64,000 nt of DNA from Streptomyces sp. NBC_01707 (GTDB lineage: Bacteria; Actinomycetota; Actinomycetes; Streptomycetales; Streptomycetaceae): assembly GCF_041438805.1 (NCBI RefSeq), contig NZ_CP109190.1, forward strand, positions 5,146,001 through 5,210,000, written 5' to 3'. Below the pieces are notes generated by a model. The model made no database searches, was not told the origin of the DNA, and worked only from the letters and a program-made list of their open reading frames with translations. Shown one piece after another: positions 8,597 to 14,178 of this stretch. The first letter of the stretch is position 1. The number at the start of each line of letters is the position of its first letter. The position numbers and the translations under genes were made by a program.

Positions 8597-8766
8597 TGAC
8601 GCCCATCACATGGGGCGCCATATCTGCACATTGGGATACCGGTCAGATATCAGGTGACGGCTCTGGGCCGATCAGGTAGTGCGTGGCCGGTAGCGTATGC
8701 GCGAGCAGCACACCGCCGGACCACACACCGGTGTGGTCGGGACTGACGGAGAGGGCTGGAACAGTT

Positions 8767-10764
8767 ATGGAAGAGCCGCGTCGCCTCGGCGGCCGGTACG
8801 AGCTGGGCTCGGTGCTCGGCCGTGGTGGCATGGCCGAGGTCTACCTCGCTCACGACACCCGGCTCGGCCGCACCGTCGCTGTGAAGACGCTGCGGACCGA
8901 TCTCGCCCGCGACCCGTCCTTCCAGGCCCGGTTCCGCCGTGAGGCCCAGTCCGCCGCCTCGCTCAACCACCCGGCGATCGTTGCCGTCTACGACACCGGC
9001 GAGGACTACGTCGACGGGGTCTCCATCCCGTACATCGTGATGGAGTACGTCGACGGGTCGACGCTCAGAGAACTTCTGCACTCCGGCCGCAGACTGCTAC
9101 CCGAGCGCACGCTCGAAATGACGGTCGGGATCCTCCAGGCGCTGGAGTACTCGCACCGGGCAGGCATCGTCCACCGCGACATCAAACCGGCGAACGTCAT
9201 GCTGACGCGCACCGGCCAGGTCAAGGTCATGGACTTCGGCATCGCCCGTGCCATGGGTGACTCCGGCATGACGATGACCCAGACGTCGGCCGTCATCGGC
9301 ACCGCCCAGTACCTCTCCCCGGAGCAGGCCAAGGGGGAGCAGGTCGACGCGCGTTCCGACCTGTATTCGACGGGCTGTCTGCTCTACGAGCTGCTGACGG
9401 TCCGGCCGCCGTTCATCGGCGACTCACCCGTCGCGGTTGCCTACCAGCACGTACGGGAAGAGCCGCAGCCCCCCAGCAACTTCGACCCCGAGATCACGCC
9501 CGAAATGGACGCGATCGTGTTGAAGGCACTGGTCAAGGACCCGGACTACCGCTACCAGTCGGCCGATGAGATGCGCGCCGACATCGAGGCCTGCCTCGAC
9601 GGACGTCCGGTCGCCGCCACTGCGGCCATGGGCGCGGCCGGCTACGGCGGCTACGACGGTTACGGGCAGGACCAGCCGACCACAGCGCTGCGCGCTGCCG
9701 ACCAGCACGGCGCCCAGACCTCCATGCTGCCCCCGGTCAACCCGGACGACGGCGGCTACGGACACGACGACCGCCCGGACCGCCGACGCCAGAAGAAGAG
9801 CAACACCTCGACGATCCTGCTGATCGCCGCGGGCATTCTGGTGCTGATCGGCGCGATCCTGATCGGCAGATCCGTCTTCGGCGGCGACAACAGCGACAAC
9901 GGCAAGGTCGACGTGCCGAACATGGTCGGGTCGAGCGTGGACGAGGCGAGGGATCTCGCGACGAACGCCGGCGTCCTCCTCAAGGTCGGCTCGCGGGAAC
10001 CCTGCGACGACCAGCCCAAGGGGAAGATCTGCAGCCAGACCCCCAAGGACGGCCAGATGCGGGAGAACGAGACCGTCACGGTCGTCGTCTCCACCGGTGC
10101 GCCGAAGGTCGAGGTCCCGGACGTCACGGAGAAGTCCGAGGAGAACGCCCGTAAGAACCTGGAGGACAAGGGCTTCAAGGTGACGGTCGTAGCGACCGAA
10201 TCGTCCACCGCGGAGCCCGGCACCGTACTCGACCAGGACCCCAAGGGCGGCACGAAGGCCGAGCCGGAGTCCGAGGTCAAGATCACGGTCGCCAGGCAGG
10301 CCACCCAGAACGTCCCCGATGTCAGGACCAAGCAGTACGACGCCGCGGTGGCCCAGCTCAACGGTGTCGGCTTCAAGAATGTCTCGCGAAGCGACGTCGA
10401 CTCGGACAAGCCCGCGGGCGAGGTCATCGACCAGACCCCGGCACCGGACGGCAAGAAGCCGCTGGACACGCAGATCGTCCTGAAGGTCTCCAAGGGCCCG
10501 ACGCAGCCTGCGACGAAGCCGATCCCCGAGGTCAGGTTCAAGACGGTGGGCGAAGCCAAGCAGCTCCTGGCCGCACAGGGCTTCACCCAGATCCAGTTCA
10601 CGCCAGGCAGCGCCACGGACGACAACGCTCGGGTCATCAGCATCGATCCGGCACCTGGCACCCAGGCCGACCCGGCAACCACCGTCGTCACCCTCACCAC
10701 TGGCGGCGGCAACGGTAACGGGAACGGCAACATCTTCGGCGGCCCGTCCGGCTCACAGGACTGA
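8767..10764 (+). CDS. pknB: PASTA-domain Ser/Thr protein kinase PknB
   Basis: A 665-residue receptor kinase. The kinase domain (about 11-275) has a GRGGMAEV loop, Lys40, the HRD motif with Asp138, DFG with Asp156 and GTAQYLSPEQA, so it should be active. A juxtamembrane linker with Gly/Tyr and Gln repeats, one membrane helix (about 349-372) and four extracellular PASTA domains (from about 382) follow. PASTA domains bind muropeptides and lipid II, so the kinase couples wall synthesis to phosphorylation of FhaA and division proteins, opposed by PstP. The ATG at 8767 was chosen because it precedes EEPRRLGGRYELG; the in-frame extension to 8683 adds no domain. A 170-base gap after pbpA could hold a secondary promoter. 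Confidence 0.95.
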   Translation: MEEPRRLGGRYELGSVLGRGGMAEVYLAHDTRLGRTVAVKTLRTDLARDPSFQARFRREAQSAASLNHPAIVAVYDTGEDYVDGVSIPYIVMEYVDGSTLRELLHSGRRLLPERTLEMTVGILQALEYSHRAGIVHRDIKPANVMLTRTGQVKVMDFGIARAMGDSGMTMTQTSAVIGTAQYLSPEQAKGEQVDARSDLYSTGCLLYELLTVRPPFIGDSPVAVAYQHVREEPQPPSNFDPEITPEMDAIVLKALVKDPDYRYQSADEMRADIEACLDGRPVAATAAMGAAGYGGYDGYGQDQPTTALRAADQHGAQTSMLPPVNPDDGGYGHDDRPDRRRQKKSNTSTILLIAAGILVLIGAILIGRSVFGGDNSDNGKVDVPNMVGSSVDEARDLATNAGVLLKVGSREPCDDQPKGKICSQTPKDGQMRENETVTVVVSTGAPKVEVPDVTEKSEENARKNLEDKGFKVTVVATESSTAEPGTVLDQDPKGGTKAEPESEVKITVARQATQNVPDVRTKQYDAAVAQLNGVGFKNVSRSDVDSDKPAGEVIDQTPAPDGKKPLDTQIVLKVSKGPTQPATKPIPEVRFKTVGEAKQLLAAQGFTQIQFTPGSATDDNARVISIDPAPGTQADPATTVVTLTTGGGNGNGNGNIFGGPSGSQD

Positions 10765-10785: not shown

Positions 10786-10817
10786 GGGCCCCGGCACCTC
10801 AACGGTGACCGGGGCCC
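10786..10817 (+). terminator. Terminator of the fhaA-pknB operon
   Basis: GGGCCCCGG and CCGGGGCCC form a perfect 9-bp stem followed by TTTGC. It lies 21 bases after the pknB stop. Confidence 0.85.
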
Positions 10818-10966
10818 TTTGCTGTGCCTGCCACGACGCCTCCTGACCGGCATACCGCACATGCAGTCGTAAACCGATCGTGTCTTCATATGTGCTGATT
10901 CGTTGAATCGATGGGGCGGGGTATCGAGCTCTTGCCTCACTTCTGCACACATAGGAGGTCGGGAGC

Positions 10967-11983
10967 ATGATCAACGAAACGGCTCTGCTGGAGTCGAGGG
11001 CATTGCGTGATGGCGTGGTGAGCCGGACGGACGTCATCGACAAGGTCAAGACCTTGTCTCTTCTTCCGGACGGCATGCACGTGACGACGGCGATGGTCGC
11101 CTCGTACTTCGAAGTGACCGAAACCGTCATTCGGGCCATGGTGTTCGACCATCGCGAAGAGCTCGAAAGCAACGGCTATCGCGTCCTCGCTGGATCGGAA
11201 CTGAGTTACTTCAAGCAACTCAGTGGGATCCAGTCACGCACGGCGTCGCTTGCGCTCTTCCCCCGGCGAGCTGTCCTCAACGTAGCCATGCTGCTCCGCG
11301 ACAGCGAAGTCGCACGTCAGGTGCGTACGTACCTCCTCGACACGGAGTACGCCGCACGGACTCATCCTGTGGATAACTCTGTCCACAGCTCCTCCGCCGC
11401 CCTCGACGACCGCATCACCCACATCCTCGGCAAGACCGTCGTCCCCATGCTCAACGCCCTCATCGAGGCCTCGGGCGAGCAGCGTCGGGATCTCATCTCG
11501 GCGCGCGCGGACATCCACCGCGTACAGCGCAAGCTGGCCCAGCACGAACAGCGGCTGCACCGACTGGAGCGCACCCGAGAGCAGCGCCCCCTAGCCGGAG
11601 TCATGGCCTCCATCGACGCCATGAACTGGCGGGAGTTCGAGCAGCACATCGCAAGCCTGCTGCGTCGGGACGGCTGCACCGACGTCGAGATCCACGGCGG
11701 CAGTGGCGACCGCGGTGCCGACATCACGGCGTACACGGCCGACGGGCGGCGTCTCGTCGTCCAGTGCAAGAACTTCGCGCCCTACCGCTCGGTGTGGAGC
11801 GGCGAGATGCAGAAGTTCGTCGGTACCAAGACGCTGCACCAGGCAGACGTGGCCGTGTACGTGGCGACCTGCCCGTTCTCTCGTGAGGCGCTCGACATCG
11901 CGCTGCAGGTCGGCGTCACTGCCGTACACCGCGGCCTGCTGGAGGCCTGGAGCGCGGGCGCGACACTTCAGGTTCTCAGGTAG
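10967..11983 (+). CDS. Mrr-type restriction endonuclease with antirepressor-like N-terminus
   Basis: A 338-residue protein of unusual build. Residues 1-125 resemble a phage-antirepressor-like DNA-associated domain (LLPDGMHVTTAMVASYFEV, then RRAVLNVAMLLRDSEVARQVRTYLL). Residues 150-205 are rich in Arg, Gln and Glu and probably form a coiled coil. Residues 215-338 carry a PD-(D/E)xK nuclease core of the Mrr family: NWREFEQHIASLL, then Asp252 (GADITAY) and Gln266-Cys-Lys268 (VQCKN). Mrr enzymes cut modified or foreign DNA. The gene stands alone between pknB and the sortase cluster, bounded by two terminators, with no methylase nearby. The start ATG has GGAGG seven to ten bases upstream. The N-terminal assignment is by pattern only. 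Confidence 0.8.
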   Translation: MINETALLESRALRDGVVSRTDVIDKVKTLSLLPDGMHVTTAMVASYFEVTETVIRAMVFDHREELESNGYRVLAGSELSYFKQLSGIQSRTASLALFPRRAVLNVAMLLRDSEVARQVRTYLLDTEYAARTHPVDNSVHSSSAALDDRITHILGKTVVPMLNALIEASGEQRRDLISARADIHRVQRKLAQHEQRLHRLERTREQRPLAGVMASIDAMNWREFEQHIASLLRRDGCTDVEIHGGSGDRGADITAYTADGRRLVVQCKNFAPYRSVWSGEMQKFVGTKTLHQADVAVYVATCPFSREALDIALQVGVTAVHRGLLEAWSAGATLQVLR

Positions 11984-11998
11984 TAGCCACACCGCAGA

Positions 11999-12037
11999 AG
12001 GCCCGAAGTCGCAAAGGATAGTTGCGACTTCGGGCCT
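11999..12037. terminator. Bidirectional terminator between the Mrr gene and srtE2
   Basis: AGGCCCGAAGTCGCAA and TTGCGACTTCGGGCCT form a perfect 16-bp stem with a 7-base loop, 16 bases from each of the two convergent stops. Confidence 0.9.
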
Positions 12038-12052
12038 GACTCATCGTAACGG

Positions 12053-12784
12053 CTAACGCAGCTCAACCGGTTTCGTACGGTCCTTGTCGACCTTCTCCGT
12101 ACGCACCAACTCGCCCCACACGATGTACCGGTACCTCGACGTGTAGACCGGTGTGCACGTCGTCAGCGTGATGTAGCGGCCGGGCTTCTTCACACCCGCT
12201 TCCTTCGGGACCGGCTGGAGCACCTTGACGTTGTACTTCGTGGTCTCGGGGAGCTCCTTGAAGACCTTGTAGACGTACCAGGTGTCCTTGGTCTCGAAGA
12301 CGACCGCGTCGCCCGTCTTCACCTTGTCGATGTTGTGGAACTTCGCCCCGTGCCCGTCGCGGTGCGCCGCCAGCGTGAAGTTGCCCTGCTTGTCCCAGGG
12401 AAGAGCGGACTTCACCGGGTCCGTGTAATAGCCGGCGATGCCGTCGTTGAGGTTCTCGGTGTCGGTGCCCTTCTTGACCAGCACCTCGCCGTTCTTCATC
12501 GCGGGTACGTGCAGGAAGCCGATGCCGTCCTTGGTGTCGAGGGCGCCGGGTCCGTCGGCCCAGTGGTTGCGGACGGTGTGCCCCTGCTTCTCGGCCTCGC
12601 GGTCCGCGAGCACATTGGTCCACCACAAGGAGTAGACGACGAACAGGCCCAGCACCAGGCCCGCAGTGATCAGCAACTCACCGAAGAGACTGACCGCGGT
12701 CGCCACGGGGTGGCGGTCCCTGCTCCGCACCGGGGGCGCGGACACGTCGGTCTGTTCTTCCTGCTGCTGGGTCCTCGCTGCCAC
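12053..12784 (-). CDS. srtE2: Class E sortase (SrtE2 position)
   Basis: A 243-residue membrane transpeptidase with a short cytoplasmic tail and one helix (about 31-55, VSLFGELLITAGLVLGLFVVYSLWW). The extracellular sortase barrel has catalytic His141 (AAHRDGH), Cys210 (TLTTCTP) and an Arg at 217 or 219. Class E sortases cleave LAxTG sorting signals and attach surface proteins to the peptidoglycan stem peptide. In S. coelicolor SrtE1 and SrtE2 anchor the long chaplins needed for aerial hyphae, and the pair sits next to pknB as here. GTG 12784 has AGGGACGGG upstream, and further extension would run into the upstream gene. Confidence 0.88.
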   Translation of the reverse strand: MAARTQQQEEQTDVSAPPVRSRDRHPVATAVSLFGELLITAGLVLGLFVVYSLWWTNVLADREAEKQGHTVRNHWADGPGALDTKDGIGFLHVPAMKNGEVLVKKGTDTENLNDGIAGYYTDPVKSALPWDKQGNFTLAAHRDGHGAKFHNIDKVKTGDAVVFETKDTWYVYKVFKELPETTKYNVKVLQPVPKEAGVKKPGRYITLTTCTPVYTSRYRYIVWGELVRTEKVDKDRTKPVELR

Positions 12785-12810
12785 CGCACCCGTCCCTGTT
12801 GTGATGATGT

Positions 12811-14178
12811 TCAGCCGACGAGCGCGTCGGGCTTCCCCTTGCTGCGTGGCCGTTCGTCGACCATCTTGCCCCACACGATCAACCGGTACGTACTTGTGAA
12901 TTCGGGCGTGCAGGTCGTCAGAGTGATGTAGCGGCCGGGCTTTGTGAACCCCGATCCGGGTGGCACCGGCCCGATCACCGAGACGTTGGACGGTGACGTC
13001 TGCGGAAGCACGCTGGTCATCTCGTACGTGTAGTACGCGTCCTGCGTCTCGACCACGATCGAGTCACCCTTGCGCAGCCTGTTGATGTAGCGGAACGGTT
13101 CACCGTGCGTGTTGCGGTGACCGGCCAGCGCGAAGTTGCCCTGCGCGGCCGACGGCATCGCCGTACGGAGTGCGCCGTCGCCGTAGTGACCGACCATCCC
13201 GCGGTCGAGGACCTTCTCCTTGCTGGTGCCCTCGGCGATCGGCGCGACCACGTCGAGTTTCGGGATGTGGATGATGGCGAAGCCCTGCCCCGGCTCGAAC
13301 GCCCCGGGCTTGCGGTCGCCCTTTGCCCAGTCGTCCTGGATCTTGTGCGTCTCGTTGCCGGCGATCTGGTCCGCACGCACATTCGTCCACCACAGCTGGT
13401 ACGTGACGAACAGCAGCATCAGCACACCGAGCGAGATGAACAGCTCGCCCACGACCCGGCTGGCGACGACGGCAGGGCTGTCCTTGGCCGCGCGGGCGGC
13501 GCGCCTCGCCTCGACGCGCGTCAGCGGTCTTCCGTCCGCAGCCGTTGATTCCGACCGGGCTTCCGACCGCGGGTCGGCGCGTCGGCGGCCGCGCCCCTTG
13601 GCGGCGCGCCGACGCTCTGCGCGGCCGCCGGCCGGTGAATCCGTCCGCGGTCCGGGTTCGGCAGACTCCGGGCGGGAATCGGCGGCCGCCGCCGTGCTGT
13701 CCACGTCGGGCTCCGGTGCGTACTCGGGCACGTACGCCGTCTCCGACTCCGGTCGCGGCGCCGGTGCGGGTGGAGTCACCGCACGATCGGCCATGCGCCG
13801 GGTGTCGGCCGACCGCAGACCGACCGTCTCGTCATGGAGGGAAAGCGGCTGAGGCGAAGACGCCGTGACGGGCTCCTGCTGCCCGTACCAGTCCCGTTCG
13901 TACCCCTCGGGGTCATACCACTCGCGCGGCGCCCCCTGGGGCTCTTGAGCCCCTTGTGACGCCTGTGCCTGCCCGCCCTGCGCCACCCCGGTGGCCGCCC
14001 CCTGCGCCGGAGGGTCCTCCGCCGGGAACCACGGCGAGGCGTGCTGCCCCGGCAGCGGATCGTTCAGCGGATCCGCCAACTGCTCGACTGCCGCCTCGAA
14101 CGCACCCGTGGCCTCGTACGCATGGTGCTCGTACGGGCCGTCCTGTCCGGGGTCGTGCTCGGGACGGAGTGCGGTCAC
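12811..14178 (-). CDS. srtE1: Class E sortase with long cytoplasmic N-terminus (SrtE1 position)
   Basis: A 455-residue protein. The first roughly 230 residues are low-complexity, rich in Pro, Ala, Gln and Glu and then Arg, and should lie in the cytoplasm. A membrane helix (about 240-262, VVGELFISLGVLMLLFVTYQLWW) precedes the sortase domain with His354 (LAGHRNTHGE), Cys423 (TLTTCTP) and Arg432. Its catalytic domain is close to that of the adjacent 243-residue sortase, suggesting tandem duplication. The start (GTG 14178) overlaps the pabA stop. The tail is much longer than in typical class E sortases and might serve for localisation. The symbol follows the order reported for S. coelicolor. Confidence 0.87.
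   Translation of the reverse strand: MTALRPEHDPGQDGPYEHHAYEATGAFEAAVEQLADPLNDPLPGQHASPWFPAEDPPAQGAATGVAQGGQAQASQGAQEPQGAPREWYDPEGYERDWYGQQEPVTASSPQPLSLHDETVGLRSADTRRMADRAVTPPAPAPRPESETAYVPEYAPEPDVDSTAAAADSRPESAEPGPRTDSPAGGRAERRRAAKGRGRRRADPRSEARSESTAADGRPLTRVEARRAARAAKDSPAVVASRVVGELFISLGVLMLLFVTYQLWWTNVRADQIAGNETHKIQDDWAKGDRKPGAFEPGQGFAIIHIPKLDVVAPIAEGTSKEKVLDRGMVGHYGDGALRTAMPSAAQGNFALAGHRNTHGEPFRYINRLRKGDSIVVETQDAYYTYEMTSVLPQTSPSNVSVIGPVPPGSGFTKPGRYITLTTCTPEFTSTYRLIVWGKMVDERPRSKGKPDALVG

Follow-up and report, generated by a model that had tools for sequence, protein, structure and literature searches.

An exchangeable cassette in the antirepressor-type domain of a chromosomal Mrr-type nuclease of Streptomyces

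What a phage antirepressor-type domain does on a Streptomyces chromosome, joined to a restriction-type nuclease and placed between a kinase gene and a sortase gene, is the question raised by this locus. The window, a stretch of 64,000 nucleotides from Streptomyces sp. NBC_01707 (contig NZ_CP109190.1, positions 5,146,001 to 5,210,000), carries the gene at positions 10967–11983 on the plus strand. Its ATG start codon is preceded by AGGAGG, eight bases 5' of it. The product of 338 aa consists of an N-domain homologous to that of phage antirepressors and distantly ORF6N-like (residues 1–130; 10967–11356, plus strand), a linker (residues 131–212; 11357–11602, plus strand) and an Mrr_cat nuclease of the PD-(D/E)xK type (residues 213–338; 11603–11980, plus strand).

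The nuclease domain is real, as a preliminary description made from the DNA alone had held. Residues 216–325 match PF04471 (Mrr_cat) in Pfam (E 3.3e-20; 72.8 bits, cut-off 21). The active-site residues D252, Q266 and K268 stand at the positions that it had given; of 126 non-redundant members of the family, 125, 123 and 124, respectively, retain them. E225 (kept in 122) and D248 (kept in 123) are predicted to be catalytic as well. Ten other Mrr proteins of Streptomyces share 51–63% identity with the nuclease part. Those numbered L162–L169 and L171 begin, by eye, with a TM-like hydrophobic stretch and do not match the N-domain; the tenth, L170, lies near a contig end. The coiled region proposed between the two domains is likely to be present in the linker, where all matches found were weak ones of coiled-coil type.

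Residues 1–150 gave no Pfam match at E-values up to 1. In particular, the protein matched neither ORF6N (PF10543) nor KilAC at this threshold, and Mrr_cat occupies the position of the latter. Sequence searches of solved structures with the N-domain returned nothing significant. PHROGs yielded weak matches of the N-part to phrog_63 (anti-repressor Ant, E 0.0036) and phrog_2286 (function unknown, E 7.3e-6). The PADLOC candidate PDC-M59A aligns at profile positions 25–132 with residues 24–126 (E 5.6e-14), the sole stretch reported from a profile 338 long, and the likeness is limited to that stretch.

The relation of residues 1–130 to phage proteins, also claimed beforehand, was borne out by tblastn and by the Pfam and PHROG assignments of the relatives. 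Matches were obtained in 79 phage records (best E-value listed 3e-33), none of which covered 80% of the query. The 40 listed phage matches run via the N-part with 44–53% identity and are frequently annotated as antirepressors, and the phage relatives match phrog_63. In two of them residues 41–84 align to the ORF6N core (profile 15–57), below the curated cut-off. Eleven stretches around N-part matches were inspected, from ten phages and one plasmid. A repressor, Cro-type or excise gene was located nearby in nine of the ten phage records: among eight Gordonia and Mycobacterium phages an immunity repressor is annotated close by in seven and an excise gene in six, the Mao1 relative has an excise gene and other DNA-binding genes in its vicinity, and that of Pagassa has XRE, Cro/C1-type and excisionase-type genes. 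No such gene was present within 6.4 kb around the relative in an Alicyclobacillus phage. Pfam analysis of five of these proteins revealed a C-terminal KilAC domain in those of the Alicyclobacillus phage and Mao1, one below the cut-off in Yeezy, and none in the Pagassa and plasmid relatives. The Pagassa protein, annotated as 'antirepressor/restriction endonuclease', was considered as the same fusion in a phage and rejected: no nuclease was matched at Pfam E-values up to 5, so its annotated name misleads.

In IMG/VR, 135 viral stretches encode relatives with 36–60% identity. Eighty were kept, and 78 of them were scanned with Pfam (L240, truncated by the end of its contig, and L272 excepted). At E-values up to 0.01 these carry KilAC (34), ORF6N (23), RhuM (4), an F-93 winged helix (3) or HNH (1), and Mrr was found in none of the 78. 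The HNH protein and the four RhuM proteins look like additional replacements of the C-terminus behind this N-domain. A search with the N-domain of the KilAC protein from viral contig L197, which is the same as a Catenuloplanes protein, retrieved 207 proteins; the 120 listed comprise 70 with Mrr_cat, 21 with KilAC (one being the query), two with RhuM, one with ORF6N and 26 without a domain. One database relative among those listed (P0214) carries PF10543. Since the N-domain is common to KilAC and Mrr_cat proteins, these sequences suggest that the Mrr fusion arose by exchange of the C-terminal domain behind an antirepressor head. The resemblance to phage antirepressors composed of this N-domain and KilAC (PF03374; PHROG 63) includes residues 1–130 with a conserved frame and a variable cassette, described below, whereas the C-terminus here is a nuclease and the gene is flanked by pknB and a sortase gene in a host slot, not by the genes of a phage immunity region.

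The upstream flank of this slot is pknB (8683–10764, plus strand), which encodes a kinase with four PASTA stretches; downstream lie two sortase-domain genes (PF04203), the first at 12053–12874 on the minus strand. Both the position and the stated adjacency of the flanks in S. coelicolor were confirmed, the latter by SCO3848 (kinase) beside SCO3849 in a published table, in which the flanks are also adjacent in S. clavuligerus and S. griseus (PMC6273383). The fusion is a family of the Streptomycetaceae found mostly in this one slot. Across 80 loci a sortase gene adjoins the gene in 79 and pknB lies upstream in 76; the other four are two contig ends, L081, which lacks pknB, and L080, which is located elsewhere. 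Two further whole-protein relatives (L178 and L179) reside outside the slot. The gene had been described as lone, which needs correction because it belongs to a large family and N-domain-only proteins occur in many Streptomyces. No methylase partner was recognised in the translations of the neighbouring ORFs, in agreement with what had been stated; of these, pknB and the two sortase genes were also run through Pfam. Nor was any other defence gene recognised in the flanks.

The locus is not universally conserved, which, together with the phage kinship of the N-terminus, removes two of the three grounds for refutation named beforehand. Some match at E-values up to 0.001 occurs in 340 of 392 Streptomyces genomes, in many of them to one part only; strong matches (E up to 1e-92) occur in 57, a slightly low count given that a few genomes hold the parts in separate pieces (e.g. 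G331, G089 and G389), and 54 of the 57 span at least 300 residues in one piece. In 396 genomes of the phylum three strong full-length matches were found, all in Streptomyces and including the window's own. Among 150 genomes of the family ten pass an E-value of 1e-60 (nine Streptomyces and one other genus; one of the ten is nuclease-less), the phylum, family and genus samples being overlapping. In 29 of 30 genomes chosen from those without the full gene there was no trace of it in 1.5 kb beside the sortase gene, a stretch that includes pknB in 25 of the 30; the exception, L133, retains a nuclease remnant in the slot. Where the gene is present, whole alleles have been replaced: measured against the locus in the window, the flanks of L058 are on average 93% identical and its gene 65%, and the corresponding values for L108 are 95% and 71%. 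In L033 flanks and gene are at 76% and 75%, respectively.

Within the N-domain, residues 43–98 or thereabouts (11093–11260, plus strand) behave as an exchangeable cassette, which is new here. In 126 non-redundant proteins the mean entropy is 0.31 for residues 21–48, rises to 1.6 (49–62), 1.24 (63–82) and 1.49 (83–98), and returns to 0.44 for residues 99–130; that of the nuclease is 1.03. In close pairs the nucleotide differences fall mostly in codons 43–84 and reach codon 98. L009 and L049, for instance, differ by 29–31% in three bins of codons 43–84 and by 0–12% elsewhere. The cassette was analysed in 84 unique genes, 15 of 99 intact genes being dropped as duplicates. With a sliding block of 42 codons, 24 of 34 close pairs differ by at least 20% in block 43–84; in blocks clear of codons 29–112 the same holds for none or one of 16–21 close pairs. 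When the backbone was defined without codons 43–98 the count was 30 of 40, against 0–3 of 35–45 in twelve other blocks, and with equal gap patterns it was 26 of 36. Third positions diverge too, by 0.38 in the block versus 0.14 elsewhere, which suggests import of DNA, not rapid evolution of the protein.

The reverse situation, similar cassettes on distant backbones, was encountered in 13 pairs with cassettes at least 88% identical and backbones at most 80% identical. Examples are L020 and L087 (cassette 96%, backbone 73%) and L074 and L075 (96% and 71%). At strict limits (block difference of at most 8%, backbone difference of at least 25%) the cassette gives 4 of 2190 pairs. Each of nine blocks from codon 141 onward, all less variable on average, gives none, and the frame blocks 1–42 and 99–154 give 16–57. 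Such a count of near-identical blocks is not specific to the cassette, as slow blocks of the gene and of control genes yield such pairs; the cassette is singled out by the close-pair analysis together with the absent correlation between block and backbone. This correlation is 0.16–0.17 for the cassette, 0.29–0.33 for the frame blocks 1–42 and 99–154, and 0.67–0.85 from codon 141 onward. Coupling of the frame blocks to the remainder of the gene is thus weak as well; recombination extends beyond the cassette, and the N-domain as a whole seems to be exchanged to some degree independently of the nuclease. In AU tests the backbone rejected the cassette group L020, L087, L074 and L075 (p-AU 2e-66) and the cassette rejected two backbone groups (p 0.0003 and 0.016), these p-values being too small since the groups were picked after the identities were known.

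Local hypervariability alone was rejected as an explanation. Fast blocks do occur in FtsW (codons 85–140 and 295–336) and PbpA, with up to 81 pairs. Six of the fast FtsW and PbpA blocks track their backbones with correlations of 0.59–0.82 versus 0.17–0.29 for the cassette, and none of the six recurs nearly identical on a distant backbone. Control correlations computed with the blocks included in their own backbone are inflated; the values given here avoid this. Positive selection on the cassette was likewise rejected, with pN/pS of 0.33–0.40 (99 sequences, duplicates kept). Neither an Mrr/antirepressor fusion nor a variable antirepressor cassette was recognised among the literature matches listed, in a collection from which subscription journals are mostly missing.

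The 80 viral relatives vary likewise. In 39 of 54 pairs with frames at least 85% identical the cassettes are at most 65% identical, and in L213 and L251 identical frames accompany cassettes that are 40% identical. This organisation into frame and cassette is therefore inherent in the antirepressor domain. The viral proteins L238, L215, L217 and others likewise combine a conserved frame with a swapped stretch of some 56 residues. On our reading of the sequence the cassette may comprise the recognition helix of a helix-turn-helix and a wing. Were it matched to phage operators, cassette similarity would be expected to follow the upstream repressor or Cro genes. On 69 viral contigs, with the frame allowed for, the partial rank correlation between cassette and upstream genes was 0.14 (none of 500 permutations was as high), and that with downstream genes was 0.10, little below. 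In the pairs L221–L230 and L253–L258, which share 98% and 95% of the cassette, no upstream match was detected. A match of the cassette to a neighbouring phage repressor is thus not clearly supported (0.14 versus 0.10), and the simplest operator-matching model in the viral relatives is weakened.

From these features a mechanism can be proposed, in which we place about as much belief as doubt when it is taken as a whole chain: an anti-phage nuclease with the antirepressor head as its aiming part and a recombining cassette as its specificity element. An accessory chromosomal nuclease would have arisen by replacement of the C-terminal part of an antirepressor, often KilAC, by an Mrr-type nuclease akin to the Streptomyces Mrr proteins of membrane-anchored look. 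The frame (residues 21–48 and 99–130) would keep the fold and probably the assembly, and the cassette (43–98) would recognise something that varies among phages: a DNA sequence most probably, failing that a regulatory protein of the phage. Recognition by the cassette would bring the nuclease to the invader for cleavage, and the host would be spared by absence of the target. The system would be retargeted when cassettes or entire alleles recombine at its fixed locus, and disarmed by loss of the nuclease. Cassette exchange fits such directed cleavage. A more specific version remains tentative, and we hold it to be possible rather than probable: Streptomyces would have redirected the recognition part of antirepressors against the phages, as a methylase-free restriction nuclease whose short specificity cassettes, of a type variable in phages too, are swapped by recombination at one slot and provide many alternative targets across the genus, along with disarmed, nuclease-less alleles. 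HsdS (DoMo) is alike in that a specificity segment is swapped among the alleles of a locus by recombination in conserved flanks (PMC3077401); HsdS segments are known recognition domains of restriction-modification systems, whereas the recognition role of the present cassette is deduced. If true, a single gene would suffice for defence and could do without a methylase, since its recognition part derives from phages and could be re-aimed by swapping some 56 codons. Since the viral relatives share the frame-and-cassette build, the seat of specificity would also be known for a broad and little-explored class of antirepressors in phages. The idea is directly testable with natural alleles that have near-equal backbones and different cassettes (L009/L016, L029/L084 and L003/L033); the gene of the window and that of L036 share 72.6% in the cassette and 89.7% in the backbone.

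Rather unlikely, in our estimation, is a modification-dependent type IV enzyme, in which the N-domain would respond broadly to DNA that is modified or foreign, with sequence context tuned by the cassette. Mrr and type IV restriction nucleases have the Mrr_cat domain and the D..QxK site in common with our protein, again with no methylase recognised nearby. In Mrr and MspJI, Mrr_cat is joined to differing recognition domains (PMC3874153), and PADLOC reports mREase_IV with an E-value of 5e-8. However, the latter match covers residues 192–315, the nuclease side, and the Pfam scan of the window protein at E-values up to 1 found neither Mrr_N nor a known modified-base domain, the place of such a reader being taken by the antirepressor N-domain. 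A swapped cassette, moreover, suggests a narrow and changeable specificity.

Improbable in our view is a sensor of the lytic switch, whose frame would co-assemble with phage antirepressors or bind repressors and so free or place the nuclease. It draws on the frame being more conserved than the nuclease (entropies of 0.31 and 0.44 versus 1.03) and common to phage proteins, and other antirepressor families bind and inactivate repressors (PMC3121763). The variation, however, sits in the cassette and not in the frame.

The nuclease-less and broken alleles bear on two further explanations. Translations of 330–360 aa were obtained from 70 of the 80 loci, and ten are not intact, some of them possibly through assembly errors. 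Translation length was used because the open-frame count for the gene (12 of 80 broken) includes over-long frames. In the open-frame test of the flanks, FtsW was intact in 64, broken in none and at an edge in five, and PbpA in 71, none and three, respectively; only these two were used, the 'broken' counts of TrpG and Srt1 being spurious from alignments that cross stops. At the slot, L131 encodes a clean protein of 219 aa with N-domain and linker and without nuclease, L172 and L173 have uninterrupted N-part frames (236 and 233 aa, respectively) with the sortase gene coming next, and the N-part of L177 contains an internal stop. Because alleles lacking the nuclease are maintained there, the N-part may have a separate function. 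Nineteen loci fetched via an N-part match (L112–L130) had no match to pknB, sortase or nuclease in 4.5 kb; their products measure 222–249 aa in 18 and 288 aa, with a different C-terminus, in L116. The own genome of the window contains a decayed-looking N-domain-only paralogue (L002, C1:5271551–5271919) about 115 kb from the gene.

These nuclease-less proteins, outside the slot and in it, agree with a domesticated regulator, in which the N-domain proteins would be host transcription factors and the nuclease form would serve development or DNA turnover, not defence. So does a conserved promoter-like element upstream of the gene, CGTGTC-N16-CGTTGA (10879–10906, plus strand), which resembles an ECF sigma type promoter. 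Compared with the sigma BldN site (CGTAAC-N16-CGTTGA; PMC2375139), it has the same spacing and -10 and a different -35. Of 84 upstream regions, 59 contain a relaxed form of the element, where simple shuffling predicts 0.085. Among 20 N-domain loci it was found only upstream of the slot allele L131, and the strict form was absent from all 30 loci that lack the full gene. The window's genome contains the strict element twice, one of them here, and a longer form once. We nonetheless regard a regulator as distinctly improbable, because the gene is patchy and often broken, its catalytic residues are kept, and cassette exchange would be unusual for a fixed regulator. Cassette-specific autoregulation was rejected, the element being constant across cassettes in the five groups compared, a constancy that speaks against the regulator as well. 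A non-functional relic, in which a prophage antirepressor was fused by chance to a nuclease, would agree with the ten of 80 alleles that are not intact and the remnant in one of 30 slots, and is hardly credible given 70 of 80 intact alleles, a kept active site and pN/pS of 0.07, 0.16 and 0.28 in frame and nuclease (99 sequences, duplicates kept).

A bldN mutant of S. venezuelae exhibited no significant plaque shrinkage (PMC10117723), which is a lead only. The gene had also been placed between two terminators. Strong hairpins are present on both sides, one after pknB (10786–10817, plus strand; -29.9 kcal/mol, z -5.4) and one between the convergent nuclease and sortase genes (11999–12037, no strand assigned; -31.5 kcal/mol, z -6.55). 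They are terminator-like only, and a consensus terminator scan reported neither, probably because they have no T run. At eight loci (L046, L053, L061, L067, L069, L071, L083 and L095) 1.3–4.2 kb separate the end of the pknB match from the gene. By eye, the cargo of these gaps consists of an oxidoreductase with a TetR-type gene, transposase-like ORFs, sortase-like fragments and small proteins. The pair of oxidoreductase and TetR-type genes was seen by eye in L053 and also in L181, a genome without the nuclease gene.
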